DNA of 64,000 nucleotides from Rhizobium sp. FY34 (GTDB taxonomy: Bacteria > Pseudomonadota > Alphaproteobacteria > Rhizobiales > Rhizobiaceae). The stretch spans positions 1-64,000 of the forward strand of contig NZ_STFZ01000031.1 of the NCBI RefSeq assembly GCF_005222845.1. Direction: 5' to 3'. A program made the position numbers and the translations under genes. Position 1 is the first letter of the stretch; each line of letters opens with the position of its first letter. Shown here in pieces: positions 24,608 through 42,212 of the stretch. The notes under the pieces were generated by a model, which saw nothing but the letters and a program-made list of their open reading frames with translations, had not been told where the DNA came from and did not search any database.

Positions 24608-24728
24608 CATTTGGCCGATCCGCCCGTTTGACTTGCAACTGACCACCGACAGGCAATCGTTTCTTAACCGTAGCCAACGCATAGTGGCGGCCTTGTTCTT
24701 GCGTCACTGCGAGTAAGGCGTGCCTGAC

Positions 24729-26153
24729 ATGACAGTCATCGAAACGGCGGAGAAATTTCTCCCGCTCAGCCTCCGGATTCGGCTTGCGCCGATGATCCGC
24801 AGGCTTGCGCCCGTTTTGTCGGGTGCAGACGAAACCTCGCGTGCGCAGCGCATGGCACTGATCGCCTTTGCCATCCGAATCATCAGCGCCGCCATTGCCT
24901 TCATCTCGCAGATCGTCCTGGCACGCCTGATGGGTGAATTCGAATACGGCATTTTTGCCTTTGTCTGGGTGCTGGTCGTCGTCTTCGGCAATCTCTCCTG
25001 CCTCGGTTTCCACACCGCCGTCATCCGCTTCCTGCCCTTGCACGAAACACGCGGCGAACATGAACTGGTGCGCGGGTTGAACTGGACGGCACGGGTATTT
25101 GCCCTGCTTTGCGCCAGCATTCTGGCCGTCTCGGGCTATGCCTTCCTGCAGGTGTTTGACCATATCGTGCCGGACTACTGGATGGTGCCGGTCTTCCTCG
25201 GCCTCATTACCCTGCCGATGATTGCGCTGGGCGATGTACTGGACGGCACGGCGCGCGCCAATGGCTGGGCTGTCACCGCCATGAGCCCAACCTATATCAT
25301 GCGGCCGCTGCTGATCCTGGCGCTGATGCTGCTGGCCATCTGGTGGGGTGCACCGCGCGGCGCCCGCACCGCCATGGAGGCGGCCCTTGTCGCCACCTAT
25401 ATCACCACGCTCCTGCAATTCTTGCGAGTGACCTGGCGGCTGCGCCGGCATCTGGGGCCTGGCCGGCTTGCCTTCGATATTCGCCCGTGGACGCGCTTTG
25501 CCCTGCCGCTTTTTCTCGTTGACGGTATCGGCTTTCTGCTGACCAATTCCGACGTGGTGGTGGTTGGCCTCTATCTGCCACCGGATCAGGTGGCCATCTA
25601 TTTTGCTGCTGCCAAAACCATAGCGCTTGTGCAATTTGTCTATTTTTCCGTGAAGGCTGCGGCTGCGCCGCGCTTTTCGACCATCATTGCCAAGGACGAC
25701 CGCCAGGAATTGACCGAATTTGCCGGCCAGGCGGCACGGTGGACGTTCTGGCCCGCCCTCGTCGTGGGCCTGACCGTGCTTGCAGCGGGCAATCTGCTGC
25801 TGTCGCTGTTTGGCTCAGCTTTCACCGAGGGCTACCCGCTGATGGTGATCCTGTTTGCCGGCATTCTGGCCAAGGCCTCTGTTGGACCCGGCGAGATCCT
25901 GCTCAACATGGCAGGGCGGCAGAAGCTCTGCGTCATCCTCTACGGTTTCATCCTCATTTCCAGCATTGCCCTCAACATGCTGCTCATTCCACGCTTCGGC
26001 CTCTTTGGTGCCGCAACGGCAACCGCCGCCGCCATGATGATCGAAGCGATCCTTCTTCATATTGCCGTGCGCCGCACGCTGGGCATCGTGATCTTTGCCT
26101 TTGCGCGGCCAATGCCGGCATCATCGCATGAAAGGCAGGACGATCATGGTTGA
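24729..26153 (+). CDS. Wzx-type polysaccharide flippase (MATE/MVF-like superfamily)
   Basis: This integral membrane protein of 474 residues has about 12 to 14 hydrophobic segments spread over the chain from residue 38 onwards. The segment ARLMGEFEYGIFAFVWVL near the second helix is typical of polysaccharide biosynthesis transporters. It would move undecaprenyl-linked repeat units across the inner membrane. A GTG three codons upstream is possible, but the ATG at 24729 has a better-placed AAGG. The stop overlaps the following CelD-like gene by eight bases. It opens the plus-strand half of the polysaccharide locus. Confidence 0.85.
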   Translation: MTVIETAEKFLPLSLRIRLAPMIRRLAPVLSGADETSRAQRMALIAFAIRIISAAIAFISQIVLARLMGEFEYGIFAFVWVLVVVFGNLSCLGFHTAVIRFLPLHETRGEHELVRGLNWTARVFALLCASILAVSGYAFLQVFDHIVPDYWMVPVFLGLITLPMIALGDVLDGTARANGWAVTAMSPTYIMRPLLILALMLLAIWWGAPRGARTAMEAALVATYITTLLQFLRVTWRLRRHLGPGRLAFDIRPWTRFALPLFLVDGIGFLLTNSDVVVVGLYLPPDQVAIYFAAAKTIALVQFVYFSVKAAAAPRFSTIIAKDDRQELTEFAGQAARWTFWPALVVGLTVLAAGNLLLSLFGSAFTEGYPLMVILFAGILAKASVGPGEILLNMAGRQKLCVILYGFILISSIALNMLLIPRFGLFGAATATAAAMMIEAILLHIAVRRTLGIVIFAFARPMPASSHERQDDHG

Positions 26154-27432
26154 GCTTCCGCCACGCGCAGCCTCGCTGCTGGACCCGGCCGCGATACCGC
26201 CCGCTCTGCCCGCCGAACGGATGCCGGTCGAGATCCCGGACGCGCCGCTGAAACTGGCCGTCGGGCGTCCGGGCCGCAGCCTGTCGGTCTATCCGGCTAG
26301 CATGGGCTATGACCTGCAGGAGGAACTCGACTTCCTGTCCAACAGGGCGATGGAGCCGAACATTTTCTTTACCGGGCGAATGCTGGCGCCCGCCATGCCG
26401 CGCGTCGAGGATCGGCAGGTGCAACTCGCCCTTATCCGCGACCAGTCCGATCGCTATGGCCGCATGCGGTTGCTGATGCCGTTCTCGCAGGAAAAACCCG
26501 GTTTCTCGATAGGGGCTGCCTCGATCATCCGGGTCTGGGCCAATCCCTTCGGTCCGCTCGGCACGCCGCTGGTCGATGCCGAAGATGCAGCTGAGACTCT
26601 CGACAATCTGTTGGAGGTTCTGGGAAGTCGTGAAGCGCGCCTGCCCAAGGTGCTCGTTATGCCTGACCTGCGGTTCGGCGGCCGTTTCGCGCAGTTGATG
26701 CGCGCTGTGGCACTTGCCCGCAATCTGCCGGTCACGATTACCGGCACCTATCAGCGCCCCATGCTGGAAAGCCCTCTCGACGGTGGCACCTATCTGAAAC
26801 AGGCGGTTTCCCCGCACCATTTGCGGGAAATGGGCCGTCAATGGCGCAGGCTTGCCGCCGATGGCCCACTCACTTACGAGGTTGCCCGCCAGCCGGCCGA
26901 TATAAGGCGCCGCGCGGAAGAGTTTCTGGCGCTTGAGGCCAAGGGCTGGAAGGGTCGCAAGCGTTCCGCGCTTATCAATGACCGTTACCGAGCAGCCTTT
27001 GCCCGCGAGGCCATCGGCAATCTGGCGGAAGCCGATGCTGTGCGCATCCACACAATCGACTACAAGGGCAAGGCGATCGCCTCACTGGTCGTGTTCGTCA
27101 TGGCCGGCGAAGCCTATACTTGGAAGACAGCCTATGATGAGGAGTTCTCGCGCTTCTCGCCCGGCAAGCTGCTGATGATGAAGCTGACTGACTGGCATCT
27201 TGATGACGCCAATATCACGCGCTCCGACAGTTGCGCCGTGCCGGATCATCCGATCATGAGCCGGTTCTGGAGCGAACGAGAGGAGATGGGAACGCTCGTC
27301 ATCGGCCTTACCGAAGCTGGCGATCGCGACGTGCGCCAGGTGGCAGCACAACTCCACCTCTACCGCAACACCCGCAACATGGCCCGCATCCTGCGCGAAA
27401 AGATCATGGGCCTGGCCGGACGAGAGGGGTAA
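26146..27432 (+). CDS. GNAT/FemAB-type acyltransferase (CelD-like)
   Basis: The 428-residue protein resembles the CelD/BcsL group of acyltransferases linked to exopolysaccharide and cellulose production. The C-terminal half carries the GNAT-like domain: REEFLALEAKGWKGRKRSAL is replaced here by EEFLALEAKGWKGRKRSAL near residue 263, then DYKGKAIASLVVFVMAGEAYTW and YDEEFSRFSPGKLLMM. It starts eight bases inside the flippase gene with AGGCAGGA ahead, so the two are coupled and probably modify and export the same glycan. The acyl group and acceptor sugar are unknown. Confidence 0.82.
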   Translation: MVELPPRAASLLDPAAIPPALPAERMPVEIPDAPLKLAVGRPGRSLSVYPASMGYDLQEELDFLSNRAMEPNIFFTGRMLAPAMPRVEDRQVQLALIRDQSDRYGRMRLLMPFSQEKPGFSIGAASIIRVWANPFGPLGTPLVDAEDAAETLDNLLEVLGSREARLPKVLVMPDLRFGGRFAQLMRAVALARNLPVTITGTYQRPMLESPLDGGTYLKQAVSPHHLREMGRQWRRLAADGPLTYEVARQPADIRRRAEEFLALEAKGWKGRKRSALINDRYRAAFAREAIGNLAEADAVRIHTIDYKGKAIASLVVFVMAGEAYTWKTAYDEEFSRFSPGKLLMMKLTDWHLDDANITRSDSCAVPDHPIMSRFWSEREEMGTLVIGLTEAGDRDVRQVAAQLHLYRNTRNMARILREKIMGLAGREG

Positions 27433-27460
27433 GACAGGAAGCCGGCGCGCAAAAGTCTCC

Positions 27461-27553
27461 TCACAGCAGCTGCGAGAGCCCCCAGAGCACGAGCGTCCAT
27501 ATCGTGATCGACACGACGATGCTTGCCAGAAGATATCGAAATCGCTTTGTCAT
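27461..27553 (-). CDS. Micro-membrane protein, 30 residues
   Basis: A short frame on the minus strand encodes 30 residues starting MTKRFRYLLASIVVSITIW and ending WGLSQLL. It has a basic head and then a single hydrophobic helix. An AGG lies five to seven bases before the ATG. Evidence for translation is its close gap-free resemblance to the protein encoded at 27756-27926: shared pattern MTxR, LAS, S, IW. It lies just beyond the end of the CelD-like gene on the opposite strand. No family was recognised. A chance frame cannot be excluded because of its length. Confidence 0.45.
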   Translation of the reverse strand: MTKRFRYLLASIVVSITIWTLVLWGLSQLL

Positions 27554-27755
27554 CAGACCTGGATAACCCAGAACAGGCCAGTCTTTGGTCCCACAGACGA
27601 TCAAAGCTGAACAATCCTATGCCAATTTACAGCAATTCCGATTGGAACGCGCCTTTGTGAAACACAAAGTTCGTGGCCATATCACGGCAGAGGACCGATT
27701 TCACGACACGGATCGCAAGTCTCCTTGGCTTGCGTCTGACTTCAAAATGCCACGA

Positions 27756-27926
27756 CTACCCGTGATGCGTGCGTTGCGTGCCATCGGTCAATGAATGCTG
27801 GCCATACAGCTGATTGCCGCCATCGGTCGATGGCCTCAAGGCAGCTGTTTCCACGTGGATGAACACTGCCCAGATTCCAAGAGACAGAATGGCACTTGCC
27901 AGCCAGACTTTGCCGCGACCCGTCAT
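27756..27926 (-). CDS. Small single-pass membrane protein, 56 residues
   Basis: The frame starts MTGRGKVWLASAILSLGIW, a basic head followed by one hydrophobic helix, and then has a short hydrophilic tail (VETAALRPSTDGGNQLYG... ending THHG). An excellent ribosome binding site, AGAAGGA, stands seven bases before the ATG. The first 24 residues match the micro-protein at 27461-27553 at M, T, R, L, A, S, S, I and W without gaps. The two sit 202 bases apart on the minus strand between the CelD-like and sugar transferase genes. The function is unknown. Confidence 0.6.
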   Translation of the reverse strand: MTGRGKVWLASAILSLGIWAVFIHVETAALRPSTDGGNQLYGQHSLTDGTQRTHHG

Positions 27927-28221
27927 GATGAATTCCTTCTCCGCAAGACGATGAGAGACCTTTCGACGACCTTTGTGCCGAAGATCCGGTAATTCGAGAC
28001 ATTTTCATGGCGCATTTGGCGCAAGCCCACCCATTCACGATCAAGTGACATCGGGCCGCGAACGGACCTCCTCATCCCAAGAACCCACGTCCCCAACTCC
28101 CAATTGCACAAATGCCACATTTGGAGACAGTGTTAACTATTCATTCATTATAAGGATGACTCGCAAGTCGCTTTGGAGTAAAGATCAGGAAACTAAGGCG
28201 TTTTGTGTGGGTTGGTGGAAA

Positions 28222-28938
28222 ATGAGCCTAATTGCTAATCAAAATTCTGCTGACAATTTAGTCTACACGAGCTCAAAAGCAGCAAGCTCGGAATATAGTC
28301 CTTTGACATTCCCCGACACGGCACAGTCTGCGATCCTGTCGTCTTTAGCCAAGCGAAGCTTCGATATCGTATTCTCCGCAGCTATATTGGTTCTTTTGCT
28401 GCCCGTGCTGCTGCTGATAGCGCTTTCAATCAAACTGGAAAGCCGCGGTCCGGTGCTGTTTCGCCAGACGCGATGGGGGCGCGATCAGAAATTGATCGTG
28501 ATTTACAAGTTCCGATCCATGCGTCAGGACCTTTGCGATCATTCTGGGGTCACACAGACAACGGTCGAGGATCCGCGAATTACGCGTGTGGGCGCATTTT
28601 TGCGGAAAACCAGCCTTGATGAACTGCCGCAGTTCATCAATGTGCTGAAAGGTGACTTGTCTGTCGTTGGACCACGGTGCCATGCCATAGGCATGTTTGC
28701 CGGTGGTCAGCGTTACGAGGATCTCGTTCCGGAGTATCATCAGCGACATACCGTGCGGCCGGGCATTACGGGCCTTGCGCAGGTGCGTGGTTGGCGCGGC
28801 CCAACGACCGACCCGGTTCACGCTCGGGCACGCATCGTCAGCGACCTTTACTATATCAAAAACTATAGTTTCCTGCTGGATATGAAGATCGTCATCGCAA
28901 CGATCAAGAATGAGATGAGCGGCGGCACGGGGCTCTGA
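28222..28938 (+). CDS. Bacterial sugar transferase (undecaprenyl-phosphate sugar-1-phosphate transferase)
   Basis: This initiating enzyme moves a sugar-1-phosphate onto undecaprenyl phosphate at the inner membrane. It is a 238-residue ExoY/PssA-sized protein. There is one membrane segment near residues 40-65 ([20 protein letters not shown]), then the family motifs [33 protein letters not shown] and [15 protein letters not shown]. The common GPRP motif reads GPRC here. The start at 28222 is preferred; the frame is open upstream to 27973 but that extension has no family features. The 5' flank (28100-28220) is noticeably AT-rich. Confidence 0.9.
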
Positions 28939-30155: not shown

Positions 30156-30269
30156 CGCTTCTATTCCAGCATTTCATAGAAGAGCGATCGCCAAGCGGGC
30201 GTCAGATGTCAAATTCATTCCACGAACCGTGCCTGAATACAGGCCTGTCGGCAAAGCAAAGGAACTTTA

Positions 30270-30473
30270 ATGCCTCCTCATCGGTTCTCTATCGGCCAGC
30301 TTGTCCGCCTCACCAAAAATCGCCTGCTCTCGCGACCGGCCAACCAGACCTATACGATCCAGGCGCCACTACCCTGGCAGGGCGATCAACCGCAGTACCG
30401 ACTGCGCGATGCGCAGTCCAACCAGGAGCGCGTCGCGCTGGAGCAGGATCTCGAGCGGATCAATCTGATCTGA
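30270..30473 (+). CDS. Conserved hypothetical protein, 67 residues
   Basis: The short protein starts MPPHRFSIGQLVRL and carries YTIQAPLPWQGDQPQYRLRD, then ERVALEQDLERI. The FxxGQxVRL opening and PQYRxR core resemble small rhizobial proteins of unknown function with an SH3-like or KOW-like beta fold; this fold is an inference. AGGAAC precedes the ATG at normal distance. It lies 84 bases upstream of the large glycosyltransferase gene on the same strand. Confidence 0.7.
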   Translation: MPPHRFSIGQLVRLTKNRLLSRPANQTYTIQAPLPWQGDQPQYRLRDAQSNQERVALEQDLERINLI

Positions 30474-30557: not shown

Positions 30558-32837
30558 ATGACAAAGACCAAGCGCATCGCGTTTATCGGCAATTCCCTTC
30601 CCCGACAGTGTGGTATCGCCACCTTCACGACAGATCTCAGCCAAGCCATGTCCAACCCGGCACAAGGGGTGGAAACGCGCATCGTCGCGATGACCGATCG
30701 CAAATTGAACTACGACTATCCGCAGAATGTAGTGTTTGAAATCCGCGATGGCGAGATCGAGGACTATGTCACCGCAGCTCGCATCCTCAATAGCGGCGAT
30801 TACCGGGCCGTGTCACTGCAACATGAGTTCGGTATCTTCGGCGGCCCGGACGGAGAGTTCATCCTCACCCTGCTGTCGCACCTGCGCCTTCCCGTCGTGA
30901 CGACATTTCACACCATTCTGGCAGAACCGACACCCTCGCAAAAGAAAGTGCTGCAGAAGGTGGCAGCTGCATCAAGCCGCGTGGTGGTGATGGCCGACAA
31001 GGGGCGTGAGTTTCTGGAAAGCGTCTATGGCGTGGACCCCGGCAAGATCGACATCATCGCCCATGGCATTCCAGACAGAGCCTTTCACGACCCCGAGCGT
31101 GCCAAAGGCAAGATGGGCTATAGTGGCCACCCGGTCATTCTGACCTTCGGTCTTCTTTCGCCAAACAAAGGCATCGAGGTGGTGATCGACGCCATGCCGG
31201 CCATCCTGGAAGCGCAGCCGAACGCGCTGTACATCGTACTGGGCGCCACGCATCCCAACCTCTTGCGGCAGGAGAAGGAGGCCTATCGCGACAGCCTGCG
31301 GGCTCGGGCCGAGCAACTGGGGGTCGAACAGTCCGTCATCTTCCTCAATCAATTCGTCGATGTGCCGACGCTTCTCGATTTCATTGCCTTGTGCGATGTC
31401 TATGTAACACCCTATCTCGATGAGGCACAGATGACCTCCGGCACGCTGGCCTACAGTTTCGGCATGGGCAGCGCGGTAGTCTCGACACCCTATTGGCATG
31501 CACGCGATCTGCTGGCAGATCAGCGCGGCATTCTGGTGCCATTCGGCGATGCGCAGGCTGCAGGCGACGCGATCTCCCGTCTGCTGAATGACGACGCCTT
31601 GCGGTTGGCCATGCGCCAGGCCGCCTTCGAAGCCGGCCGGCTCATGATCTGGTCGCATATCGCCTCGCTCTATTTAAAGAGCATCGAGACGGCACGCGCA
31701 GCCTATCGACCGCGTCTCATCAGCGATCTGATGACGCACAGCATGGCGCGCGCGCCGCAGACCACTGCTCTAAAACTCGGCCACTTCCATGTCATGTGCG
31801 ATGATACCGGCATTTTCCAGCATGCAGTCTATTCCGTGCCAGACCGCACACATGGCTATTGCGTGGACGACAATGCGCGGGCGCTGATCCTTGCCTGCCA
31901 ACTGGCCGCTGCCGGTGAAACGGGCATTGCCGACCGTATGACTGCATCCTTCGCGGGCTTTATCCAGCATGCCTGGAACCCCGATCGCGAGCGCTTTCGT
32001 AACTTCATGAGCTTTGACCGTCGATGGCTGGAAGAAGAGGGGTCCGAAGACAGCCACGGTCGAACCCTTTGGGCGCTCGGGGTATGCGCTGCGTCAGACA
32101 GTGACCGGCCGCGCCGCCGCTGGGCAAGCGCCCTGTTTGCGCGCGCCATGTCTGCATCGCGGCAGTTTCGGTCACCCAGAGCCTGGGCCTTCACATTGAT
32201 CGGGCTTGATGCCTATGCAACGACAAACCACCAGGATGAACGGGCAGCCGAACTGCGCACCGAACTGGCAGAGTGCTTGATGGCACTTCTGCACCAGGTT
32301 TCAAACGGTGATCGACACTGGTTCGAAGAAGGCCTGTCCTATGAGAATGCGCGGCTTTGCCAGGCATTGATCACGACCGGCATGGCAACCGGCTCCAGCG
32401 AAATGGTGACAGCCGGGCTGCGATCCCTGCGCTGGTTGATGCAGCAGCAGATGGCGCCAGGTGGTCAGTTCCGGCCCATCGGCACGGAAGGGTTTTTCGA
32501 TGTGGGCGAGCCGCCCAAGATCTTCGACCAGCAGCCGGTGGAGGCAACAGCTACCATATCCGCCTGCCTGGCAGCTTTTGATGCCACGCAGGAAAAGACA
32601 TGGGCAGAGGCAGCAGCCCGCACCTTCACCTGGTTTACCGGCAGCAATGACCATGGGCTGTCCCTGGTCGACCCGGAAACCGGAAGCTGCCGCGACGGAC
32701 TGCACCCGGACCGGGCGAATGAAAACCGTGGCGCGGAATCTGTGCTTTGCTACCTGATCTCCTGCCTCGACGTCGGCCGCCTGCAGCGCCTGGCGCAAGC
32801 GACGCCGCAACGGGCGGAAATTCGCCAGCTATCCTGA
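30558..32837 (+). CDS. GT4-type glycosyltransferase fused to a C-terminal helical toroid-like domain
   Basis: The 759-residue protein has two parts. Residues 1 to about 385 form a GT-B glycosyltransferase of family 4: N-terminal RIAFIGNSLPRQCGIATFT, LTFGLLSPNKGIEVVIDAMP in the donor domain, and a late acceptor-donor segment TPYLDEAQMTSGTLAYSFG near 290. Residues about 400-745 form a helical region rich in paired helices with Trp and His motifs (GYCVDDNARALI, SHGRTLWALG, FEEGLSYENARL), suggesting an (alpha/alpha)6 toroid as in glycosidases or epimerases. A GGGG ribosome site precedes the ATG. It is followed 42 bases later by a GH130-family gene. The sugar specificity is unknown. Confidence 0.85.
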   Translation: MTKTKRIAFIGNSLPRQCGIATFTTDLSQAMSNPAQGVETRIVAMTDRKLNYDYPQNVVFEIRDGEIEDYVTAARILNSGDYRAVSLQHEFGIFGGPDGEFILTLLSHLRLPVVTTFHTILAEPTPSQKKVLQKVAAASSRVVVMADKGREFLESVYGVDPGKIDIIAHGIPDRAFHDPERAKGKMGYSGHPVILTFGLLSPNKGIEVVIDAMPAILEAQPNALYIVLGATHPNLLRQEKEAYRDSLRARAEQLGVEQSVIFLNQFVDVPTLLDFIALCDVYVTPYLDEAQMTSGTLAYSFGMGSAVVSTPYWHARDLLADQRGILVPFGDAQAAGDAISRLLNDDALRLAMRQAAFEAGRLMIWSHIASLYLKSIETARAAYRPRLISDLMTHSMARAPQTTALKLGHFHVMCDDTGIFQHAVYSVPDRTHGYCVDDNARALILACQLAAAGETGIADRMTASFAGFIQHAWNPDRERFRNFMSFDRRWLEEEGSEDSHGRTLWALGVCAASDSDRPRRRWASALFARAMSASRQFRSPRAWAFTLIGLDAYATTNHQDERAAELRTELAECLMALLHQVSNGDRHWFEEGLSYENARLCQALITTGMATGSSEMVTAGLRSLRWLMQQQMAPGGQFRPIGTEGFFDVGEPPKIFDQQPVEATATISACLAAFDATQEKTWAEAAARTFTWFTGSNDHGLSLVDPETGSCRDGLHPDRANENRGAESVLCYLISCLDVGRLQRLAQATPQRAEIRQLS

Positions 32838-32879
32838 GACGATCAGAATTCTGCAGTGTCCAAACAAAAAGGATCAGCC

Positions 32880-34184
32880 TTGCCCCATTCGAGCATTCTC
32901 AACCGGCAGGCCCTCTATTTAAGGCCCGATCCAACACGGGTTATCGTTCGACCCTTCAAACCCTCAACCGAACCGCGGCACCTCAAACCACGCGACAAAA
33001 CCCGAGCAAACGAGATTGTCGATCGGGTCCTGACGCTCGACCAGACCGCCACGGCAAACCAGCTGCGGGATATCCTGCACAATTTCGAGGGCAGGCACCG
33101 CAATCTCCTGCGCCAGTTTGAACTGCGTGCCGATAGTATGGAGGATGCATTTTGCCACCACCAGCGCTTCAGCCAGCAGGAAAGGCAATTGATCGGCGCC
33201 TATTTCATGAACGAATACTCATTCGAATCGGCCGCACTCTTCAACCCGAGCATCGTGCCGCATCCTGACCAGAGCGACGTTGCGGACGGCAACCGACGGG
33301 TGATCATCAGTCTCAGAGCCGTGGGAGAAGGTCACATCTCATCGCTGACCTTTCGCTCCGGCATGATAAACACTGACGGTGCCGTGAGCATTGATCCGCC
33401 GGTGCAATTGGCCTGCCTGCCCGACATTCACGCCAATGATGGCCTGGCAGCGACAGGCTGCATTGCGTTAAGCTTCAAAAGCGAAAGTGATCTAAGCGAA
33501 CGGGTCATCTTTCCGGCGACGGAGGCCCAGTCCAATGGAATAGAGGACGCCCGTTTCGTCGCCTTCGAGGATGAGGGAAAGACGGTCTACTTCGCCACCT
33601 ATACGGCCTATAGCGGCTCATCGATCCGCTCTGAACTTCTGGAAACCCGCGATTTCCTGAATTTTACGCTGACGCCGCTGCGCGGGCCTGCAGCTCGCAA
33701 CAAGGGCATGGCGCTGTTTCCGCGGCGCATCAACGGACGATATGCCATGATCGCGCGCCAGGACAGCGAAAATCTCTTTCTGCTCTATTCCGATGACCTG
33801 CATCACTGGGATGAGGGTCATCTTCTGATGAAGCCGGAATTTGCCTGGCAGTTCGTCCAGATCGGCAATTGTGGATCACCCGTGGAGATCGACGAGGGCT
33901 GGCTGCTGTTTACTCATGGTGTTGGTCCCATGCGCCGCTATTCGATCGGGGTGACGCTTCTCGACAAGCAGGATCCCAGCATCATCCTATCGCGCACAGT
34001 AGAGCCGCTGCTCCAGCCGGAACCTACAGAGCGGGAGGGCTATGTACCCAATGTCGTCTATTCCTGCGGCGCCATGCGCCATGGCGACCTGATCGCGCTT
34101 CCCTATGCCGTATCGGATAGCTATTCCAATTTCACCACCATCCAGATCAATGCACTGCTCAGCTCAATGCGCCCCGTTGGATAG
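32880..34184 (+). CDS. Glycoside hydrolase family 130-like protein (mannoside phosphorylase type)
   Basis: The protein of about 434 residues has a five-bladed beta-propeller look from residue 130 onwards. The GH130 catalytic motif reads NGIEDARFV near residue 222, with the Asp as the proton donor; later RNKGMALFPRRINGRY and IGNCGSPVEIDEGWLLF fit the family. GH130 enzymes mostly cleave beta-mannosides with phosphate. The start is taken as TTG 32880, six bases after AAGGA; a GTG eight codons upstream has no such site. It lies directly behind the GT4-toroid gene, suggesting synthesis and breakdown of one glycan. Confidence 0.83.
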   Translation: MPHSSILNRQALYLRPDPTRVIVRPFKPSTEPRHLKPRDKTRANEIVDRVLTLDQTATANQLRDILHNFEGRHRNLLRQFELRADSMEDAFCHHQRFSQQERQLIGAYFMNEYSFESAALFNPSIVPHPDQSDVADGNRRVIISLRAVGEGHISSLTFRSGMINTDGAVSIDPPVQLACLPDIHANDGLAATGCIALSFKSESDLSERVIFPATEAQSNGIEDARFVAFEDEGKTVYFATYTAYSGSSIRSELLETRDFLNFTLTPLRGPAARNKGMALFPRRINGRYAMIARQDSENLFLLYSDDLHHWDEGHLLMKPEFAWQFVQIGNCGSPVEIDEGWLLFTHGVGPMRRYSIGVTLLDKQDPSIILSRTVEPLLQPEPTEREGYVPNVVYSCGAMRHGDLIALPYAVSDSYSNFTTIQINALLSSMRPVG

Positions 34185-34225: not shown

Positions 34226-34594
34226 TTACAGTGCCGTCATTTCGCGGATGGACAAGATGACGGCGACCGGATCATAGGGCTTGGCCATGAAGCGAGCCTC
34301 GACGGGCAGGAGCGCAACATCAACCTTGCGATGCCCTGACGTCACGATGATCTTGATCGCTGGCCAGCGATCGCGCACGGTTGCCACCAATTTCAACCCG
34401 TCAATCCCGCCCGGCATGCCAACATCGGTGAACAGCAACTGGATGGTTTCGTTGGCGATAAGGGCTTCAACCGCCTGCGCGGAGCTAGCGGCTTCGAACA
34501 CAGTAAACCCGGCCTGTTCCAGATCATCGACAATCCTCATGCTGATCAACGCCACGTCTTCGACAACAAGAATTGGGATGCGTGGATTGCTCAT
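34226..34594 (-). CDS. Single-domain response regulator
   Basis: The 122-residue protein is a stand-alone receiver domain. Acidic pocket residues are in VVEDVAL near 12, the phosphoacceptor Asp in LLFTDVGMPGGIDGL near 57, the Thr/Ser switch in IIVTSGH near 86, and Lys in MAKPYDP near 108. No output domain follows. It lies 194 bases downstream of the degenerate histidine kinase on the same strand, an arrangement typical for HisKA_2-family kinases and their partner regulators. Confidence 0.9.
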   Translation of the reverse strand: MSNPRIPILVVEDVALISMRIVDDLEQAGFTVFEAASSAQAVEALIANETIQLLFTDVGMPGGIDGLKLVATVRDRWPAIKIIVTSGHRKVDVALLPVEARFMAKPYDPVAVILSIREMTAL

Positions 34595-34788
34595 AAAACA
34601 TTCAATCTATTGTGGACCAGCCTATAGCCGTTTCCGCCGATGCCCTGCCCTTCAGCGTCCGGACCGTTCTCGCACTTGGTTTTGCGCGTAGAATGAAATT
34701 CGACACCCGGTATAACTCCCGGAGCGCGAGATCGAGCCATACCAATGCCGTTCACTTGCACTGGTCGATCCTTGACCCGCAGAGGGCA

Positions 34789-35523
34789 TCACCCATTGGT
34801 ATGTGCGCTGCGGTGGGAGATCGAAACCCTGTTTCCAGGTCCAGCGTCAGTCACGGCGATATTGGCATCCATCTGTTTGCCGAGCGCCTCGACGATCCCG
34901 GTTCCGTTGCCTTTCACACTATCGGTCTTCGGCGGCATGCCTATACCGTCACCCTTGACCTGCTGAGTCCAGTCCAGACCTTGGGTGTGAAAGGCAACGG
35001 CAATTTTGCCCTTGCGCTGGTTCGGAAAAGCATGTTTCAGCGCATTGATAACAATTTCGCTAAGGACAAGGCGGAGACTGACGGACATGTTGGAATCCGT
35101 CACGGTCTTGTCGACATTGAAGGTGATCGCGACTTGTTCGGGATCGTGGATAGACGAAACCCGCAGGCTGTTGCGCAATTGCTCGAAGTAGCTGCGCAGT
35201 TCGACATCAACCACGCTTGATGCAACAAGCTGCAGCTGAACAGCAGCTATCGACATGACCCGGCTATGGGCTGACTTCAGATGCGCTCGTGCCTCTTCAG
35301 TCTGAACCTTACGCGCGCTTTGCAAGAGAATGCTGGCGATGATCTGCTGGCTGCACCGACGCGCAACTCGCCATCCAACAAAACGATGGGTGCACTGGAA
35401 GAGCGCGATACCGGCCAGCGTAAGGCTCAGAGAAGCATCGGGATGCCGCTTCGTGGCAACAGTTGTGGGTGTTGTCCTTCCGACCAAAGGCTCGGGGTGC
35501 AAAGCCACTCCTAGGATAGACAA
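34789..35523 (-). CDS. Degenerate HisKA_2-family histidine kinase, probably decayed
   Basis: The 244-residue frame contains a HisKA_2/HATPase module: IIASILLQSARKVQTEEARA, then HSRVMSIAAVQLQL, then the N-box EIVINALKHAFPNQRKGKI. Key residues are missing. The expected phosphoacceptor region (HRVANSLQ in relatives) reads WRVARRCSQ, so the His is gone. The adenine-binding Asp of the G1 box (DDGxGMP) is Gly (KGDGIGMPP). The first 55 residues do not resemble any sensor domain. On the same strand in another frame, 35358-35390 encodes PIVLLDGELRV, a PAS-like string, so an internal deletion with a frameshift is likely. Activity as a kinase is doubtful. Confidence 0.65.
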   Translation of the reverse strand: MSILGVALHPEPLVGRTTPTTVATKRHPDASLSLTLAGIALFQCTHRFVGWRVARRCSQQIIASILLQSARKVQTEEARAHLKSAHSRVMSIAAVQLQLVASSVVDVELRSYFEQLRNSLRVSSIHDPEQVAITFNVDKTVTDSNMSVSLRLVLSEIVINALKHAFPNQRKGKIAVAFHTQGLDWTQQVKGDGIGMPPKTDSVKGNGTGIVEALGKQMDANIAVTDAGPGNRVSISHRSAHTNG

Positions 35524-36914: not shown

Positions 36915-37679
36915 CTACAGCTTTGACGGCAATGACGGGCGGGCGACCCCAGTCTCACCTGTTCTGGATGCGCTAGCATCAAAGGCGACGCCGGCGCGCA
37001 CCAGAAGGTTCACACGCTCATCCGGCATCAGCGCAGCAAAGGCAGAGGCAGCCTGTTGCTGCGCGGGATTGAGTTTTTTCCAGATGGAAGCAGTATCCCT
37101 GACCGGCGCCCACAGCATCAGCGTCTGGAGATCTCGCTCGAAGCTCGTCGCTGCACCCTTCAGCACATAGGGAGACACTCTACCCCATTGGGCAAAACGT
37201 GCCTGCAAGGATGCAAGTTCTGCAGGCGCATAAAATTCCGCGTATTCCAGCAGTCGGATCTGCTCATCGGCCGAGCGCCCCAAAAACCAGTTGGCAAAGG
37301 CAAGCCGTGACCAGAGCAGGCCATTGGTAGGCTCGCACTTCAAAGCCTTTTGGGCATCATCCGAAAGTTGGTTGAGCGCGACGATCCATGCGTCGCGATT
37401 GGTCGCCGGTGTAAATGCATCGGCATACATCACACCCAGTTCCACAGCAGCTTCGATACCACCGGTGGCGCACGAAGACAGAGCGGCAGTCGCAATCTGT
37501 CGGCGCGCCTCAATCGTTGCGGGCGGTACAGACGCCTGGCTCGCCGCCCAGGCGCGAAACTGACGCAGTTCCTGCACCTGCGCAGCGGTTCTCAATTCAC
37601 GAAAAGCGACGACCGAACAGACCGCGCACAGGGAAACCAGAACGGCACAGCCGACGATATTACGCTTTGTCATCGACAT
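36915..37679 (-). CDS. Hypothetical membrane-anchored protein of the polysaccharide operon
   Basis: The protein of up to 254 residues has an N-terminal hydrophobic anchor (IVGCAVLVSLCAVCSVVAF, residues 8-26). The remainder is a predicted periplasmic, mainly helical domain with TPR-like spacing (EAAVELGVMYADAF, LLWSRLAFANWFLGR, IRLLEYAEFYAPAELA). The start overlaps the tail of the tyrosine autokinase gene by 20 bases, or 14 if the second Met is used, so it is translationally coupled to it. No named family was recognised. A role in assembling or regulating the Wza/Wzc export complex is inferred from position only. Confidence 0.75.
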   Translation of the reverse strand: MSMTKRNIVGCAVLVSLCAVCSVVAFRELRTAAQVQELRQFRAWAASQASVPPATIEARRQIATAALSSCATGGIEAAVELGVMYADAFTPATNRDAWIVALNQLSDDAQKALKCEPTNGLLWSRLAFANWFLGRSADEQIRLLEYAEFYAPAELASLQARFAQWGRVSPYVLKGAATSFERDLQTLMLWAPVRDTASIWKKLNPAQQQAASAFAALMPDERVNLLVRAGVAFDASASRTGETGVARPSLPSKL

Positions 37680-39933
37680 AATAACTGCTGTAGCGACCCT
37701 GATAATATTCCGAGGAACCGTATTCGCGGTAGAACTTCATGCGCTCGGTATCCACCTTGTTGAGGAAGGCACCCAGGCATTTGTCGGCGACAAGCGGGTC
37801 GCTGAGGATCGTATCACGCACGACCTTTCGAGCTGTCCTGCCCCATTCGACGACAACCAAGAAACCATCCACCCGACGAGCCACCACGCGCCCGTCCACC
37901 ACCGGCCCAATCGGCGGCAGATCGAGAACGACATATTCATACTCGGCACTCAAGGCCTGCAGAAGCTCAGCCATCTTCGCAGATGATAGAAGATCGGCAG
38001 AATGCGTGACACGACGACGAACAACTGCCGGCAGGAAGTGCAAGCCGGTGACATCATCCTTCAACACCAGTTCGCTATAGGAACGCCCTTCCAGCAGAAC
38101 TTCTAGGAAACCCGCTTCAGCATGTTGAGCGATAGAGCGTGTAGCACCGGGATTGCGCAAATCGGCATCGATCAGAATGGTCTTTCCGCTCTGCGCCAGC
38201 ATTTGTGCCATATTGACCGAGACCGTCGATTTCCCTTCGCTCGGCAGGGTCGAGATGACGCCAATAATCTTGGCCTTCTTCGGCACCCGCACATCGATCG
38301 CCAGACGCGCAGCCCGCAGGCTTTCCGCGAAGGAGGACAAGGGATGATCGACGGCTTGCCGGGTAATGCTGCGTCGGAAATCGATCTGACTGGCTGAAAC
38401 CGCATCATTCCGCGTCGTTGCAAGCGCGGTAATCAGCGGTAGGCTACCAAGAAATTCCAGGCCGAGCACATCACGAATCTGCTCTCCGGTGCGGAAGTAG
38501 CGATCGCGGAACTCCCGGAACGCACCAATGCCACCGCCAACGGCTGCTCCAAGCACAATGGACAGCGCCAGCACAAGAGCCTTGCGTGGGCTGCTGGGCA
38601 CGCTGGGCGGCACCGCCTTGGAGATCACGCGCGCTTCCGTAATTGGAAAGGACTGGCCCTGCGTTGCTTCCTGGTAACGTGTTAGAAACGTCTGGTATAG
38701 ATTCTTGTAAGTCTCGGACGTTCTTTCCAACTCGCGCAGCTGCACCTGCGTCTCATTGGCAACGACGCTCACGTCGGTTGCGCGCGCCACACCCTCGGTA
38801 ATGTTGCGCTCACGAGACAAGGAAACCTGGAGCTCGCTCTGGTAGCTTTCTGCAATGCGGCGCAGTTCGCCAAACATCAAGCGCTGGTATTCCGCCATTT
38901 CCTGGCGCAAGCGGATAGCCTGGATATGATCGCTGCCAAGACGCTTGGCGATTTCCGACTCGCGCTTTGACGCGTCCAGATACTTCTCACGCAGCGTGTT
39001 GATAACCGAACTGTCGAGGGCATCGGTGACCATCGCATCGCTCTGTCCCGAAGCGATGATCTGCTGAATGCGATCATAACGGGCCTGGGCGCGTGCCGTA
39101 TCGGCGCGTGCCACGATCAGCGCACTGTTCAATTCCGCAAGTTGCTGGTCTGAAACGAGCTTTCCATCCGCTTGAACAAGTCCGTTCTCGGCCCTGAAGC
39201 GCTGCACCGCCATGTCCGAGGCAAGCGACTGCCGGCGCAGTTCTTCAATACGCTCCTGCAGCCAGGTACCGGCACGGCGGGTGGCATCATACTTTGCATC
39301 GAGCTTGTCGTTCAAATAGGCTTCCGCCAAAGCAGACACGATCGATGCAGACAGACGCGGCGATGTCGACGTAACAGATACTTCCAGCACATAGGAGCGG
39401 CCAGTTCTACTGACCGTCAGACTATCCTGAACGATGCCCAGCGCAGATTGTCGCAGCCGTTCCTGGGGATCTAAAATCTGGTCCGCACCGCCGCCAGACA
39501 TGCCTATGGTCTGGAGAACCGCCTGAATACCATCCTTCACCGGGTTCAGGACGGATTGACCAGACGCCATGAATTCGGCGTTGTCATACAGCTTCAGCTT
39601 GTCCACCGCCGCAAGCCCGATGGCCTCGGATTTCAGAAGCTCAACTTGACTCAGTACAGAGGCTTCATCATCGAGAACACCGCCGAATGATGAAAGCTGT
39701 TGGGCAATTTCGCTATTGCTGCGGTCAATCAGAATGCTGGTAGACGCCGTGTAACGCGGCACCGCCGTCAAAAGATAAACAACACCCAAAACAACTGCGA
39801 CGCAGATACAAATAGCAACAACACGCCATTGACGGCGTGCTGCTGCTATAAGCTTATCGATGTCAATCTGACCCGCCTGAAAATCCTCTTCGTCCGGTTC
39901 ATGGGAACGAGTAAACGAAGATATCTGATTCAC
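37660..39933 (-). CDS. Polysaccharide co-polymerase / tyrosine autokinase (Wzc/ExoP-like)
   Basis: The 757-residue protein combines a chain-length (Wzz) domain with a bacterial tyrosine kinase. Membrane segment 1 is near residue 37-55 (VAICICVAVVLGVVYLL); a long coiled-coil periplasmic region follows; segment 2 lies near 445-465 (ALVLALSIVLGAAVGGGI). The kinase has Walker A TLPSEGKSTV near 564, Walker A' LIDADLRNP, and Walker B YVVLDLPP. The C-terminus is a Tyr cluster (EYGSSEYYQGRYSSYY) for autophosphorylation. It starts with GTG. It would control polymer length and export together with the Wza-like lipoprotein. Confidence 0.95.
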   Translation of the reverse strand: MNQISSFTRSHEPDEEDFQAGQIDIDKLIAAARRQWRVVAICICVAVVLGVVYLLTAVPRYTASTSILIDRSNSEIAQQLSSFGGVLDDEASVLSQVELLKSEAIGLAAVDKLKLYDNAEFMASGQSVLNPVKDGIQAVLQTIGMSGGGADQILDPQERLRQSALGIVQDSLTVSRTGRSYVLEVSVTSTSPRLSASIVSALAEAYLNDKLDAKYDATRRAGTWLQERIEELRRQSLASDMAVQRFRAENGLVQADGKLVSDQQLAELNSALIVARADTARAQARYDRIQQIIASGQSDAMVTDALDSSVINTLREKYLDASKRESEIAKRLGSDHIQAIRLRQEMAEYQRLMFGELRRIAESYQSELQVSLSRERNITEGVARATDVSVVANETQVQLRELERTSETYKNLYQTFLTRYQEATQGQSFPITEARVISKAVPPSVPSSPRKALVLALSIVLGAAVGGGIGAFREFRDRYFRTGEQIRDVLGLEFLGSLPLITALATTRNDAVSASQIDFRRSITRQAVDHPLSSFAESLRAARLAIDVRVPKKAKIIGVISTLPSEGKSTVSVNMAQMLAQSGKTILIDADLRNPGATRSIAQHAEAGFLEVLLEGRSYSELVLKDDVTGLHFLPAVVRRRVTHSADLLSSAKMAELLQALSAEYEYVVLDLPPIGPVVDGRVVARRVDGFLVVVEWGRTARKVVRDTILSDPLVADKCLGAFLNKVDTERMKFYREYGSSEYYQGRYSSYYVDDKA

Positions 39934-39969
39934 GATTGGATTCCATTATCAAAGGTCTAGTCAAGCAAA

Positions 39970-40722
39970 TCAGCCGTTGGTGACAGGGCTGGTTGGCGTC
40001 GTCGGCGTCGTTGTACCACCGGTTACCGTTGTGTTGTTGATCGTTGTCGTTGTCGATGTGCCCGTTGTACCACCACCAGTGCCGCCACCACTCGCAGTCG
40101 CACCACCGGCAGCCGTCAACGTGCCGCCATTCGACGCGCCACCAGCACCCGCACCAGCGGCACCAGAGGTTGTACCAACAGCACCAGCCCCAACACCGGG
40201 CCCAGCAATGGCCGCACCTGGAGCAGCCGGCGCACCAGCACCAGCACCAGCACCGGCACCAGCAGGCGCACCGGCACCAATGGCAGCAGTCTGCACAGTA
40301 CCTGGCTGACTTGCTGCAGCCGCCATTTGCGTGCTTGAAGCGATACCGACCTGAATGCTTGCCGCAGCAGCAGGATTGGTGGCAGCCAACTGCCCAGCGG
40401 CGGCCAAAGCACCCTGCGTCATCGCAGCAACCTGAGCTTCACTCGCGGCAGATGCCGCAACCTGCATTGCCGTCATTGCTTCGGTCATCTGCCCTGCCGC
40501 AGCAGCTTCGGCCAACAGCCTCTCGACAACGCCCCTAACGTCTGCCGCAGGCGACTGCAGCAGAGACTGCGGGTTTGCAAGAAATGCAGCGAGCGTCAAA
40601 GGCGCAACGGCCTGAACGCCAGGCGCTGCGGGTGCAACAGCCTGCTGCGCCATTGCCTGACTTCCAACGAACAGTGTCACGCTCGTCAAAAGCATTACTG
40701 AGAGTTTAGACTGAGTTTTCAT
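39970..40722 (-). CDS. Ala/Gly/Thr-rich secreted protein
   Basis: The 250-residue protein has a signal peptide (LSVMLLTSVTLFVGSQAMA, cut near residue 26). The mature part is strikingly low in complexity: an Ala-rich helical zone (about 60-165, LAEAAAAGQMTEAMTAMQVA), then Ala-Gly-Pro repeats, then a Gly/Thr-rich tail (GTSTTTTINNTTVTGG). It contains no Cys and no known domain. GGAG nine bases before the ATG at 40722 favours that start over one two codons earlier. It lies 36 bases upstream of the tyrosine autokinase gene and is likely co-transcribed with it. The function is unknown. Confidence 0.78.
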   Translation of the reverse strand: MKTQSKLSVMLLTSVTLFVGSQAMAQQAVAPAAPGVQAVAPLTLAAFLANPQSLLQSPAADVRGVVERLLAEAAAAGQMTEAMTAMQVAASAASEAQVAAMTQGALAAAGQLAATNPAAAASIQVGIASSTQMAAAASQPGTVQTAAIGAGAPAGAGAGAGAGAPAAPGAAIAGPGVGAGAVGTTSGAAGAGAGGASNGGTLTAAGGATASGGGTGGGTTGTSTTTTINNTTVTGGTTTPTTPTSPVTNG

Positions 40723-40833
40723 GAACATCTGCTCCAATTGTAAACTTTGGATAACCATGTCGCATTAGCACTCGTTAAGCAAGTCGAAAGCGCAACGACA
40801 TCGTCTGGCCGGAGTATTTTCTTTATGTTTGGT

Positions 40834-40857
40834 TAAATGGCGGCCCGAAGCCGCCAT
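40834..40857 (-). terminator. Probable terminator after the Wza-like gene
   Basis: ATGGCGGC (40837-40844) and GCCGCCAT (40850-40857) form an eight-pair stem with a five-base loop. On the minus strand it is followed by TTTAACC, a short U-tract. It lies 14 bases past the stop of the export lipoprotein gene, so the downstream secreted-protein gene probably has its own promoter in 40740-40835. Confidence 0.6.
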
Positions 40858-40871
40858 CTAGACATTCACCA

Positions 40872-42053
40872 CTAGTTTCTGATCGAGTCTCGAGTATCCG
40901 CAACATTTGCCACAGAGGACGTTGCCGAGTTCAAGATGGTCAGGAACTTCAGCAGTTCGACCGAGTCAGACGTCGATACATAGATCGTGTCCTTGTTCTG
41001 CATCGGGAACTTCTGCGCCATGAAGAAGCCCGCCGGATCGCGGAGGTTTGCCCTGAAGATCACAGGCACTTCCTTTGACGCAAAACCATGCGTGTCTACA
41101 CCGATTTTCTGCAGAAAATCCTTGCTGACCGTACGATAGACCAGCACAGCCCTCGGCTCTGCCTTGTCGTCCAGCAGGCCACCCGCCTTCGCCAGCGCTT
41201 CACCCAAGGTCAAATCCGAATCTTCGAAGTCAAAACGACCACTTTCACCCGTTACACCGAATGCCAGGAAAGTACGCCGATCACGATTGACGATCAGAGT
41301 ATCGCCGGGCTGAACATAGATGTTTTCAGAGGATTTCTTGGAAATCACATCATAAGGAACCGTAACTGAGCGACCACGACGCTGCACCGTCACAGTCGAT
41401 TCAGCGCCCGGAGAGCTCAAACCACCAGCCTCGGAAATCAGGTCAAGAATCCGCTCACCAGCAGGGCTGACCTCAATCTTCTTGGGATCCTTCACATCAC
41501 CCAGAACGGAGGCCTCCATGGACCGGCTTTCTTCGATCGACACCACAACCTGAGGCTCGATCGCCCGATTGGCGAGGCGCGATGCGATTTCCAACTGGAC
41601 TTCATCGACCGGGCGATTGGCCGCAGCAATCTTACCGGCGTAAGGCACAGTAATGTTGCCGGCGCGATCAATCGTCTGCTTCGGCAGGCTGATATAATTG
41701 CCAGGACGCGACCCTGCATCCGCCGGAATGAACAATCCGCCCGATTGCGATTCAAATATAGAAACCTGGACAATGTCACCCACACCCAGAACGATCTGCG
41801 GAGGACCGCCACGGCCACCACCAAAGCTGCCACTGAGAGTAGACGTTGTCGTATCCGATGCGTAAGCAAGCACAGCACTGTTGATATCCACCAGCGCATA
41901 ATCAATGCCGACCTTGCGATCAGCACTCTCTACCTTGACCGTCGCACCGGAATCGACAGCCTGCTGATCAGGCCCGGACCTTGGCAAAGAGGTACAGCTG
42001 GACAACAAAAGGACGCTAAGCATCCCCAATACACCACGTGATGAAACCTTCAT
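40872..42053 (-). CDS. Polysaccharide export outer-membrane lipoprotein (Wza/ExoF-like)
   Basis: The 393-residue protein has a lipoprotein signal (GMLSVLLLSSC, lipobox LSSC with Cys20). A poly-export domain follows at about 85-190 (GVGDIVQVSIFES, NYISLPKQTIDRAGNITVPYAGKI), then SLBB-type repeats (VLGDVKDPKKIEVSPAGERILDL is split here near 195; YVQPGDTLIVNRDRRTFLAFG near 265; DTIYVSTSDSVELLKFL near 350). It would form the outer-membrane channel for the polymer, in complex with the autokinase encoded downstream. Confidence 0.92.
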   Translation of the reverse strand: MKVSSRGVLGMLSVLLLSSCTSLPRSGPDQQAVDSGATVKVESADRKVGIDYALVDINSAVLAYASDTTTSTLSGSFGGGRGGPPQIVLGVGDIVQVSIFESQSGGLFIPADAGSRPGNYISLPKQTIDRAGNITVPYAGKIAAANRPVDEVQLEIASRLANRAIEPQVVVSIEESRSMEASVLGDVKDPKKIEVSPAGERILDLISEAGGLSSPGAESTVTVQRRGRSVTVPYDVISKKSSENIYVQPGDTLIVNRDRRTFLAFGVTGESGRFDFEDSDLTLGEALAKAGGLLDDKAEPRAVLVYRTVSKDFLQKIGVDTHGFASKEVPVIFRANLRDPAGFFMAQKFPMQNKDTIYVSTSDSVELLKFLTILNSATSSVANVADTRDSIRN

Positions 42054-42085
42054 GAACCCCTACCCCATAAACATGATTCTGATGA

Positions 42086-42104
42086 TGTGAAACATGCTTT
42101 CACA
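42086..42104. promoter_or_regulatory. Operator-like interrupted palindrome upstream of the Wza-like gene
   Basis: TGTGAAA and TTTCACA flank a five-base centre (CATGC), giving a 19-bp perfectly symmetric site 33 bases before the start codon of the export lipoprotein gene. Its shape is that of a binding site for a dimeric regulator, but no known regulator consensus was matched. Confidence 0.35.
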
Positions 42105-42212
42105 AGACTTAAAACACAGTTTCGATAACCTTGCTACCCGTGTCGCGCAGATAAAGCGGATTCTGCTAATACGTTTGCATAGGCCATGTTGCAGTACGGT
42201 AACACGGCGTTC

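Follow-up and report, generated by a model that had tools for sequence, protein, structure and literature searches.

In Thermoanaerobacter X-514, the gene set Teth514_1786-1789 encodes two GH130 beta-1,2-mannoside phosphorylases, a GT4 glycosyltransferase and a mannose-1-phosphate (Man-1-P) guanylyltransferase, and it was predicted to be intracellular (Chiku 2014, PMC4264767). In mycobacteria, the methylmannose polysaccharide is served by the GT4 enzyme ManT and by MmpH, an (alpha/alpha)6 alpha-1,4-endomannosidase that recycles the product of the GT4 enzyme (PMC9883506). The GH130 beta-1,2-mannosidases BT3780 and BACOVA_03624 are described as secreted (Cuskin 2015, PMC4599007), and the GT108 mannosyltransferase/phosphorylases of Leishmania act in mannogen turnover and beta-1,2-mannan metabolism (PMC8950772). 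Here we describe a two-gene unit in a 64,000-nucleotide stretch of Rhizobium sp. FY34 (contig NZ_STFZ01000031.1, positions 1 to 64,000; hereafter the window), in which a gene for a GT4 domain fused to a glycosidase-like toroid is followed by a gene for a GH130 enzyme. The pair is a new variant built from families, GT4 and GH130, that are themselves known. At somewhat less than even confidence, we read it as a mobile, presumably cytosolic mannoside-turnover module in which a bifunctional GT4-toroid protein would form and trim an alpha-linked product and a GH130 enzyme would act on beta-1,2-linked mannose, more likely by a non-phosphorolytic route. No paper on the pair was found in the open-licence literature, where the searches were only partly aimed at it; absences reported below likewise refer to the named collections and searches.

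The pair resembles Teth514_1786-1789 in that a beta-1,2-mannose GH130 stands beside GT4 and a mannose-nucleotide gene. It differs in that the Thermoanaerobacter GH130 enzymes were shown to be phosphorylases and carry Lys at the site discussed below (9fj8, 7fip), and the consulted portions of the paper mention no toroid for that cluster (PMC4264767). ManT and MmpH share with the pair the combination of a GT4 enzyme and a mannan-cutting barrel on one glycan, and the toroid matches MmpH in fold (Z 25.1); however, the two are separate genes, their four-gene cluster contains no GH130 as far as the consulted text describes it, ManT keeps both Glu residues of the EX7E motif, and MmpH was not found by the toroid profile (PMC9883506). 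With BT3780 and BACOVA_03624, the window GH130 has in common an acidic residue replacing a phosphate-binding base, the catalytic Asp and the beta-1,2 Lys; those enzymes are without all three bases (PMC4599007), whereas the window enzyme keeps two and is nearer to the phosphorylases in fold and profile. GT108 enzymes have the same propeller but are distant (Z ~21 against 33), and the 18 PDB sequences that the profile retrieved at E<0.001 included no GT108 chain. YPO2471 of Yersinia pestis (PDB 7tem), for which no paper was found by name in the open-licence literature, is the only significant PDB sequence relative of the toroid and shares its DD-x-ARA and DG..N.GAES motifs; unlike the toroid, it is named as exported, is not fused to GT4 and has a chain of 427 residues.

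The initial annotation had proposed a GT4-toroid fusion at 30558-32837 followed, after a gap of 42 bases, by a GH130 gene. This arrangement was confirmed by the TTG start at 32880, by Pfam and by AlphaFold, and comprises the following features:

30558-32837, forward strand: fusion gene (GT4 plus toroid), ATG start, open reading frame of 759 amino acids.
30558-31709, forward strand: GT4 (GT-B) glycosyltransferase domain, residues 1-384 of the fusion (Pfam GT4 domains at 19-357; motif conservation in 92 and 28 rows), with a non-canonical donor site (L199, Q291, Y299).
31710-32837, forward strand: modelled C-terminal (alpha/alpha)6 toroid, residues 385-759 plus stop (AlphaFold model, fold search, conservation in 38 rows); D437, D438, D498 and D657 invariant, E590, E662 and E727 near-invariant.
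32880-34184, forward strand: GH130 (long form) gene with TTG start, alternative start GTG 32856 (PF04041; fold matches; start set by a homologue and the upstream aaaaaggatc).
33885-33887, forward strand: codon of GH130 E344 (numbering from GTG 32856), Lys in the displayed beta-1,2-mannoside phosphorylases (alignments).
33702-33704, forward strand: codon of GH130 K283, alignment counterpart of Lys199 of BT3780 (beta-1,2-mannose specificity).

The 42-base gap (32838-32879) follows from the TTG at 32880, which has aaaaaggatc just upstream and agrees with the annotated start of a homologue (L010, MPHSSLLNRQAL); with GTG 32856, the start of the longest GH130 reading frame, the gap would be 18 bases. 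The fusion matched PF13692, PF00534 and PF13439 above their cut-offs over residues 19-357 and is therefore a GT4 member, and the Pfam scan found no domain on its C-terminal part. The partner is a GH130 member, with PF04041 scoring 106.4 bits against a curated cut-off of 26.

The survey across genomes showed that the fusion and GH130 form a real module, as they are neighbours far more often than chance would give. In the set of 60 relatives, 19 genomes had the full-length fusion, 18 of the 36 within the genus (own genome included) and 1 of the 24 outside; this count covers full-length rows only, a tally of 46 including weak GT4-only matches. PF04041 was found in the identical 19 genomes and adjoined the fusion every time, the two genes converging in genome G037. 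In a phylum sample of 299 genomes, the toroid occurred in 15 and PF04041 in 29. Fourteen of the toroid genomes had GH130, 13 of them beside the toroid (in G194 it lay on another contig, and G186 had none), while the 15 genomes with PF04041 and no toroid mostly held the kind of GH130 that matches the profile from its first positions. The genome collection gave 583 relatives, and the loci of the best 80 were tallied, a set that favours close relatives. GH130 was located directly 3' of the fusion in 73 of these loci (67 long form, 6 short form) and ~3.1-3.2 kb downstream in 2; the other 5 lacked it, including two that stop at or close to a contig edge. GT4 accompanied the toroid in all loci but L062 and L089, where the toroid begins <130 bases from the locus edge.

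A second sample covered 301 genomes from the phylum of locus L068, an Anaerolineae bacterium by title and hence Chloroflexota. The toroid was found in 32 genomes, and 30 of the 32 toroid loci were fetched; 28 had the same GT4 beside or fused to the toroid, and 26 had GH130 within ~1.5 kb, a few upstream or converging. In several of these loci the toroid occupied its own frame of 350-491 codons with GT4 alongside, and the two halves therefore belong together even when unfused. Toroid and GH130 identities were correlated across 28 loci (Mantel r 0.84), which fits joint inheritance, although two vertically inherited genes would give a similar value. The joint module of the initial annotation, which was to be doubted if the genes did not occur together elsewhere, thus held in the relatives, the 80 loci and both larger samples.

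GH130 enzymes take beta-mannosides with inversion. The modelled structure of the partner consists of a helical N-terminal extension of ~115 residues followed by a five-bladed propeller, whose best matches were tied: 7fip, a beta-1,2-mannobiose phosphorylase (Z 33.7, root-mean-square deviation 1.9, 262 aligned), 9gph, a 1,2-beta-oligomannan phosphorylase (33.6), and Lin0857 (33.6). The beta-1,2-mannoside phosphorylases spanned Z 33.3-33.7 in these structure matches, which were made without residue-level alignment; they were followed by beta-1,4 phosphorylases (~30-32), solved or putative hydrolases (28-29) and GT108 (~21). N130, R154, E230, D231 and K283 were invariant (84 long rows; 83 of the 83 with a residue there). 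D231 is the catalytic Asp and N130, R154 and E230 are substrate-binding positions, the equivalence to BT3780 residues being drawn from alignment and spacing, and K283 aligns with Lys199 of BT3780, which contacts O2 of the +1 mannose. That Lys selects beta-1,2 linkages in GH130 (Cuskin 2015, PMC4599007).

A change was observed at the presumed phosphate site. E344 occupies the position of a Lys in the four displayed relatives 9fj8, 7fip, 5b0p and 9eqq. We take this Lys to contact phosphate as one of three phosphate-binding residues, whose published names were not found in the consulted portions of text; R301 and H354, the other two bases presumed to bind phosphate, are retained. The window enzyme therefore has neither the three bases of the GH130 mannoside phosphorylases nor the absence of all three that marks the BT3780 type. 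Spacing suggests that E344 corresponds to Glu268 of BT3780, one of two base candidates. GH130 is reported to become a hydrolase when its basic phosphate residues are exchanged for acidic ones (Cuskin 2015, PMC4599007).

Glu was found at this site in 80 of the 82 long rows, the other two having Asp and Pro. The set also held 16 short GH130s: those directly behind the fusion all carried Glu (6/6), whereas those behind an ordinary GT4 or elsewhere carried Lys or Arg (9/9), one more being cut off. In a FastTree phylogeny of 97 sequences with the site masked, the 82 long forms made up one clade (support 0.956), and the six short Glu forms made up another (0.984), nested in the short group (1.0) and apart from the long clade. 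Lys is taken as ancestral, as the solved relatives suggest; if so, there would have been two or more losses of the base, each in a lineage with members behind the fusion. Since the whole long-form lineage is fixed for Glu, only two clades speak for a link to the partner, a few-origin pattern that carries no statistic. In the second sample, the base was gone in 23 of the 24 readable partners (Glu 15, Ala 7, Leu 1, Arg 1). Because Lys is replaced by Glu at the presumed phosphate site, the GH130 partner is probably no ordinary phosphorylase, and a beta-1,2-mannosidase or transferase is likelier. The change makes it possible to test directly which features set GH130 phosphorylases apart from hydrolases and transferases.

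GT4 enzymes act with retention at the anomeric carbon, and GDP-alpha-mannose would yield an alpha-mannoside. The GT4 domain of the fusion retains the catalytic His of the PimA/ManT type: H118, aligned to the FHT of PimA, is among the columns at least 97% conserved and was present in 28 of 28 rows of the second sample. The donor-phosphate Lys, K204, is also kept. The EX7E motif, by contrast with the four ordinary GT4 neighbours examined, which retain GR...DKG and EX7E, reads Q291-X7-Y299 (Q291 in 92/92 and Y299 in 90/92 rows; 28/28 and 27/28 in the second sample). Its second Glu binds ribose and is essential in ManT (PMC9883506). The position of PimA Arg196 is L199 in 92 of 92 rows, and in 28 of 28 of the second sample; this change weighs less because ManT seems to be without the Arg as well (PMC9883506). 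As the donor Glu of EX7E is replaced, the polymerising domain of the initial annotation stands as a GT4 member with putative polymerising activity. A GT-B domain that has lost its ribose-binding Glu would shed light on how GT4 enzymes use their donors.

These residues bear on the scheme of the initial annotation, in which GT4 would build a mannoside or glycan and GH130 would phosphorolyse it to Man-1-P as an intracellular reserve. The nearest GH130 relatives are indeed beta-1,2-mannoside phosphorylases, R301 and H354 are retained, and Thermoanaerobacter sets two GH130 phosphorylases beside GT4 and a Man-1-P guanylyltransferase (PMC4264767). A retaining GT4 would nevertheless make alpha-mannosides from GDP-alpha-mannose, whereas GH130 takes beta substrates, so that, short of an unusual donor, the linkage formed by one enzyme cannot simply be the linkage cut by the other; moreover, the Lys is replaced in nearly all partners seen and the GT4 donor Glu is missing. 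The building and breakdown by one module thus survives as a joint module, phosphorolysis itself has become doubtful, and the reserve scheme is an unlikely, though serious, candidate.

The C-terminal part is an (alpha/alpha)6 toroid according to the model. AlphaFold confidently predicted a helical barrel for residues 385-759 (pLDDT 88.6, pTM 0.89), and its best fold match was 7tem, the uncharacterised Yersinia protein (Z 40.1), which the profile search of PDB sequences also retrieved (E 1.6e-15). Cellobiose 2-epimerases and AGE (Z ~30-32), GH76 alpha-mannanases (up to 29.2), GH9 and MmpH (7qsj, 25.1) followed. The name toroid is right, as the best fold matches are (alpha/alpha)6 enzymes, and the comparison with glycosidase and epimerase folds that the initial annotation had proposed returned both epimerases and mannanases. 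Pfam gave weak scattered matches only in a scan of 45 toroid members, the best being GH127 (E 0.0066), and a viral fold library gave two matches at E<=0.001 with 7-11% identity.

D415, H422, D437, D438, R441, D498, R541, E590, D657, Q658, Q659, E662, D713, N723 and E727 were invariant or near-invariant in the 38 toroid rows. They sit around the starts of alternate helices and in loops, positions that line the pocket in (alpha/alpha)6 barrels. The acidic residues whose lack would have counted against a joint catalytic module are hence conserved. D437/D438 ... E662 resemble D47/D50 ... E262 of MmpH in order and spacing, compared without residue-level alignment, and this likeness is suggestive only.

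The toroid could alternatively be an epimerase or isomerase of the AGE/cellobiose 2-epimerase type that alters a GT4-made sugar. These enzymes are its next-best folds after 7tem, and close relatives have a true AGE gene 3' of the pair; we presume the catalytic His pair to be the mark of AGE and cellobiose 2-epimerase. Between model residues 117 and 331, His is the majority residue in no column of the toroid rows, whereas the nearby AGE genes have an invariant His in that part of the barrel (e.g., PGHMCEWVWL), and no profile similarity between toroid and AGE was found. An AGE epimerase was rejected on these two grounds, and epimerase-type action on the sugar is highly improbable.

From the observed anatomy, co-occurrence, mannose context, conserved residues and site swap, we infer location, activities, linkages, direction and role as follows. 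The GT4-toroid would be a single protein with two functions, in which a GT-B transferase whose donor site is unusual is linked to a glycosidase-like barrel that may trim or recycle the alpha-linked product of the GT4 domain, on the principle of mycobacterial ManT and MmpH and in a single chain. GH130 would act on beta-1,2-linked mannose of the same compound. Because the presumed phosphate site has lost one base, it would more likely free or transfer mannose than carry out ordinary phosphorolysis to Man-1-P. In the most economical reading, the fusion makes and trims an alpha-linked part of the compound and GH130 deals with its beta-1,2-mannose, and the mannose-6-phosphate isomerase (PMI), AGE, GMP/PMI and phosphomannomutase-like HAD genes beside the pair in other genomes would supply or drain mannose. 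If this is correct, current metabolic maps of soil and plant-associated bacteria lack an internal mannose compound that the module makes and recycles.

Several observations weigh against this turnover module. The mannose neighbours are lineage-limited, with none beside the window pair. Nine of the 24 second-sample partners have Ala, Leu or Arg rather than Glu. Glu is also fixed throughout the long lineage, including eight copies not directly behind the fusion (L005, L008, L012, L063, L076, L097, L098, L099), and the long form of L012 lies near a GT4 without a toroid. The two other presumed phosphate bases are kept, and the nearest characterised relatives are phosphorylases. The phosphate contact of the Lys is presumed, the comparison at this site being drawn from sequence alignments. 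Finally, epimerases (Z ~30-32) rank above mannanases among the toroid fold matches after 7tem.

GH130 might instead build a bacterial mannogen, a beta-1,2-mannan, as a synthase or transferase, with the fusion supplying and trimming an alpha-mannosyl primer for it. The Leishmania GT108 enzymes share the propeller and include GDP-Man-dependent transferases (structure entry titles; PMC8950772), and an altered site would suit a different donor; on the other hand, GT108 is clearly the more distant fold (Z ~21 against 33) and no product is known. Uhgb_MS, a GH130 'mannoside synthase', is among the nearest folds (Z 33.1) but keeps the Lys. Overall, we regard such a synthase as improbable. A bolder form would make the pair a widespread bacterial counterpart of Leishmania mannogen metabolism, in which the fusion, with a non-canonical donor, makes and trims an alpha-mannosyl primer and GH130, freed from phosphate by repeated Lys loss, is a beta-1,2-mannosyl transferase or hydrolase. 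This is a decidedly speculative proposal; if true, the product would be a mannan or mannose solute new among intracellular compounds, and plasmids would have contributed to its spread.

The distribution of the pair is consistent with mobility. By record titles, it occurs in Alphaproteobacteria, deltaproteobacteria, Acidobacteria, Verrucomicrobia, Planctomycetes, Spirochaetes, Anaerolineae and Bacteroidetes. Plasmid records add Fusobacteriota, as well as Deinococcota, where no GH130 adjoins but one lies a gene further. Forty-five plasmid records matched the fusion, 25 of them over at least 80% of the protein, and 18 of the 45 were typed as conjugative. Its occurrence in half of one genus agrees with an accessory unit that is gained and lost. 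In Sphingomonas paeninsulae (L005, 8114-10325) the GT4-toroid gene is split into several frames, with a nearby GH130 frame annotated as whole. A contig labelled Mycobacterium sp. KBS0706 (L030) has a toroid 59% identical to that of the window; the label or the contig may be wrong.

The mannose theme of the initial annotation was supported by genes beside the pair elsewhere. A class I PMI gene lies directly 5' of the fusion in 23 of the 80 loci, and also in L003 and L004, and a GMP/PMI gene takes this position in L007. An AGE-family gene, whose best NCBIfam match was D-mannose isomerase, far under cut-off, is found 3' of the pair in 7 of the 80 loci and in L002 and L010. L035 has nearby a HAD protein that matches eukaryotic phosphomannomutase. 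In the source genome, a GMP/PMI gene lies on a different contig, ~1.6 kb from an AGE-like gene, and no separate manA was found there. In close Rhizobium relatives (L002, L010, L017-L022, L058), the AGE-family gene comes right after GH130; the window has none. In Croceicoccus (L012, 7983-9272), the same GT4 occurs without the toroid, with a long GH130, a mannose-6-phosphate isomerase and HAD-IIB nearby.

Six of the 80 loci (L067, L070, L075, L078, L086, L088; acidobacterial by title) have the consecutive order fusion, long GH130, ordinary GT4, short GH130, and the four genes occur in a different order on an Ilyobacter plasmid. In the four-gene units (these six and L008), the Lys/Glu site is Glu in the long GH130 and Lys or Arg in its short counterpart, the short form of L078 being cut off. 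Additional long GH130 genes away from the fusion (L097, L098, L099, in genomes G083 and G281) all have Glu. Among the neighbour-cluster representatives that were scanned, the rest were of common types, e.g., ABC transporter, CheB/CheR, SDR, chaperonin and LysR.

Stress tolerance was a further suggestion of the initial annotation. Sphingomonad plasmid copies have CbpM, slipin and acetate kinase (L005), DnaK, GrpE, a J-domain protein and a universal stress protein (L007), or cardiolipin synthase, cyclopropane fatty acid synthase and an antiporter (L012) as neighbours. The chaperone and universal stress genes hint at such a role, which the promoter test did not support: GGAAC-N17/18-GTT, which we take to be the stress sigma promoter consensus, had 3 sites in the window against 3.3 expected, and occurred in 2 of 89 upstream regions, one being the window site at 30261. 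That site, GGAAC-N18-GTT, lies 300 bases 5' of the fusion, and the window count of such sites is at chance level.

The location of the pair inside an export locus was confirmed for the source genome by its flanks, which are context outside the module (Pfam, neighbour search):

24720-28938, forward strand: Wzx-like, GNAT and WcaJ-like genes.
37660-43667, reverse strand: Wzz/tyrosine kinase, Wza-like and Wzy-like genes.

Individually, the export-type genes are Wzx-like 24720-26153, WcaJ-like 27973-28938, Wzz/kinase 37660-39933, Wza-like 40872-42053 and Wzy-like 42213-43667, the last scoring under its Pfam cut-off. This position between Wzx/WcaJ-like and Wzz/Wza/Wzy-like genes favours a role of the pair in priming or decorating the surface polysaccharide of the adjacent genes. 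However, none of the six export-locus genes of the window was found in the 94 other loci (tblastn, E 1e-5; flanks of up to 10 kb, some much shorter), and many copies lie on plasmids without such neighbours. The export setting therefore appears private to the source genome, a link to exopolysaccharide as a general role was rejected, and the surface primer of the initial annotation, unsupported by these loci, is the most improbable of the roles considered. The small open reading frame at 30269-30472, 5' of the fusion, likewise had no tblastn match in the 94 loci. After the pair, the reverse strand at 34226-35523 encodes a lone receiver domain and a HisKA_2 histidine kinase, whose best NCBIfam match was the general stress response kinase PhyK (E 1.3e-16, far under cut-off).

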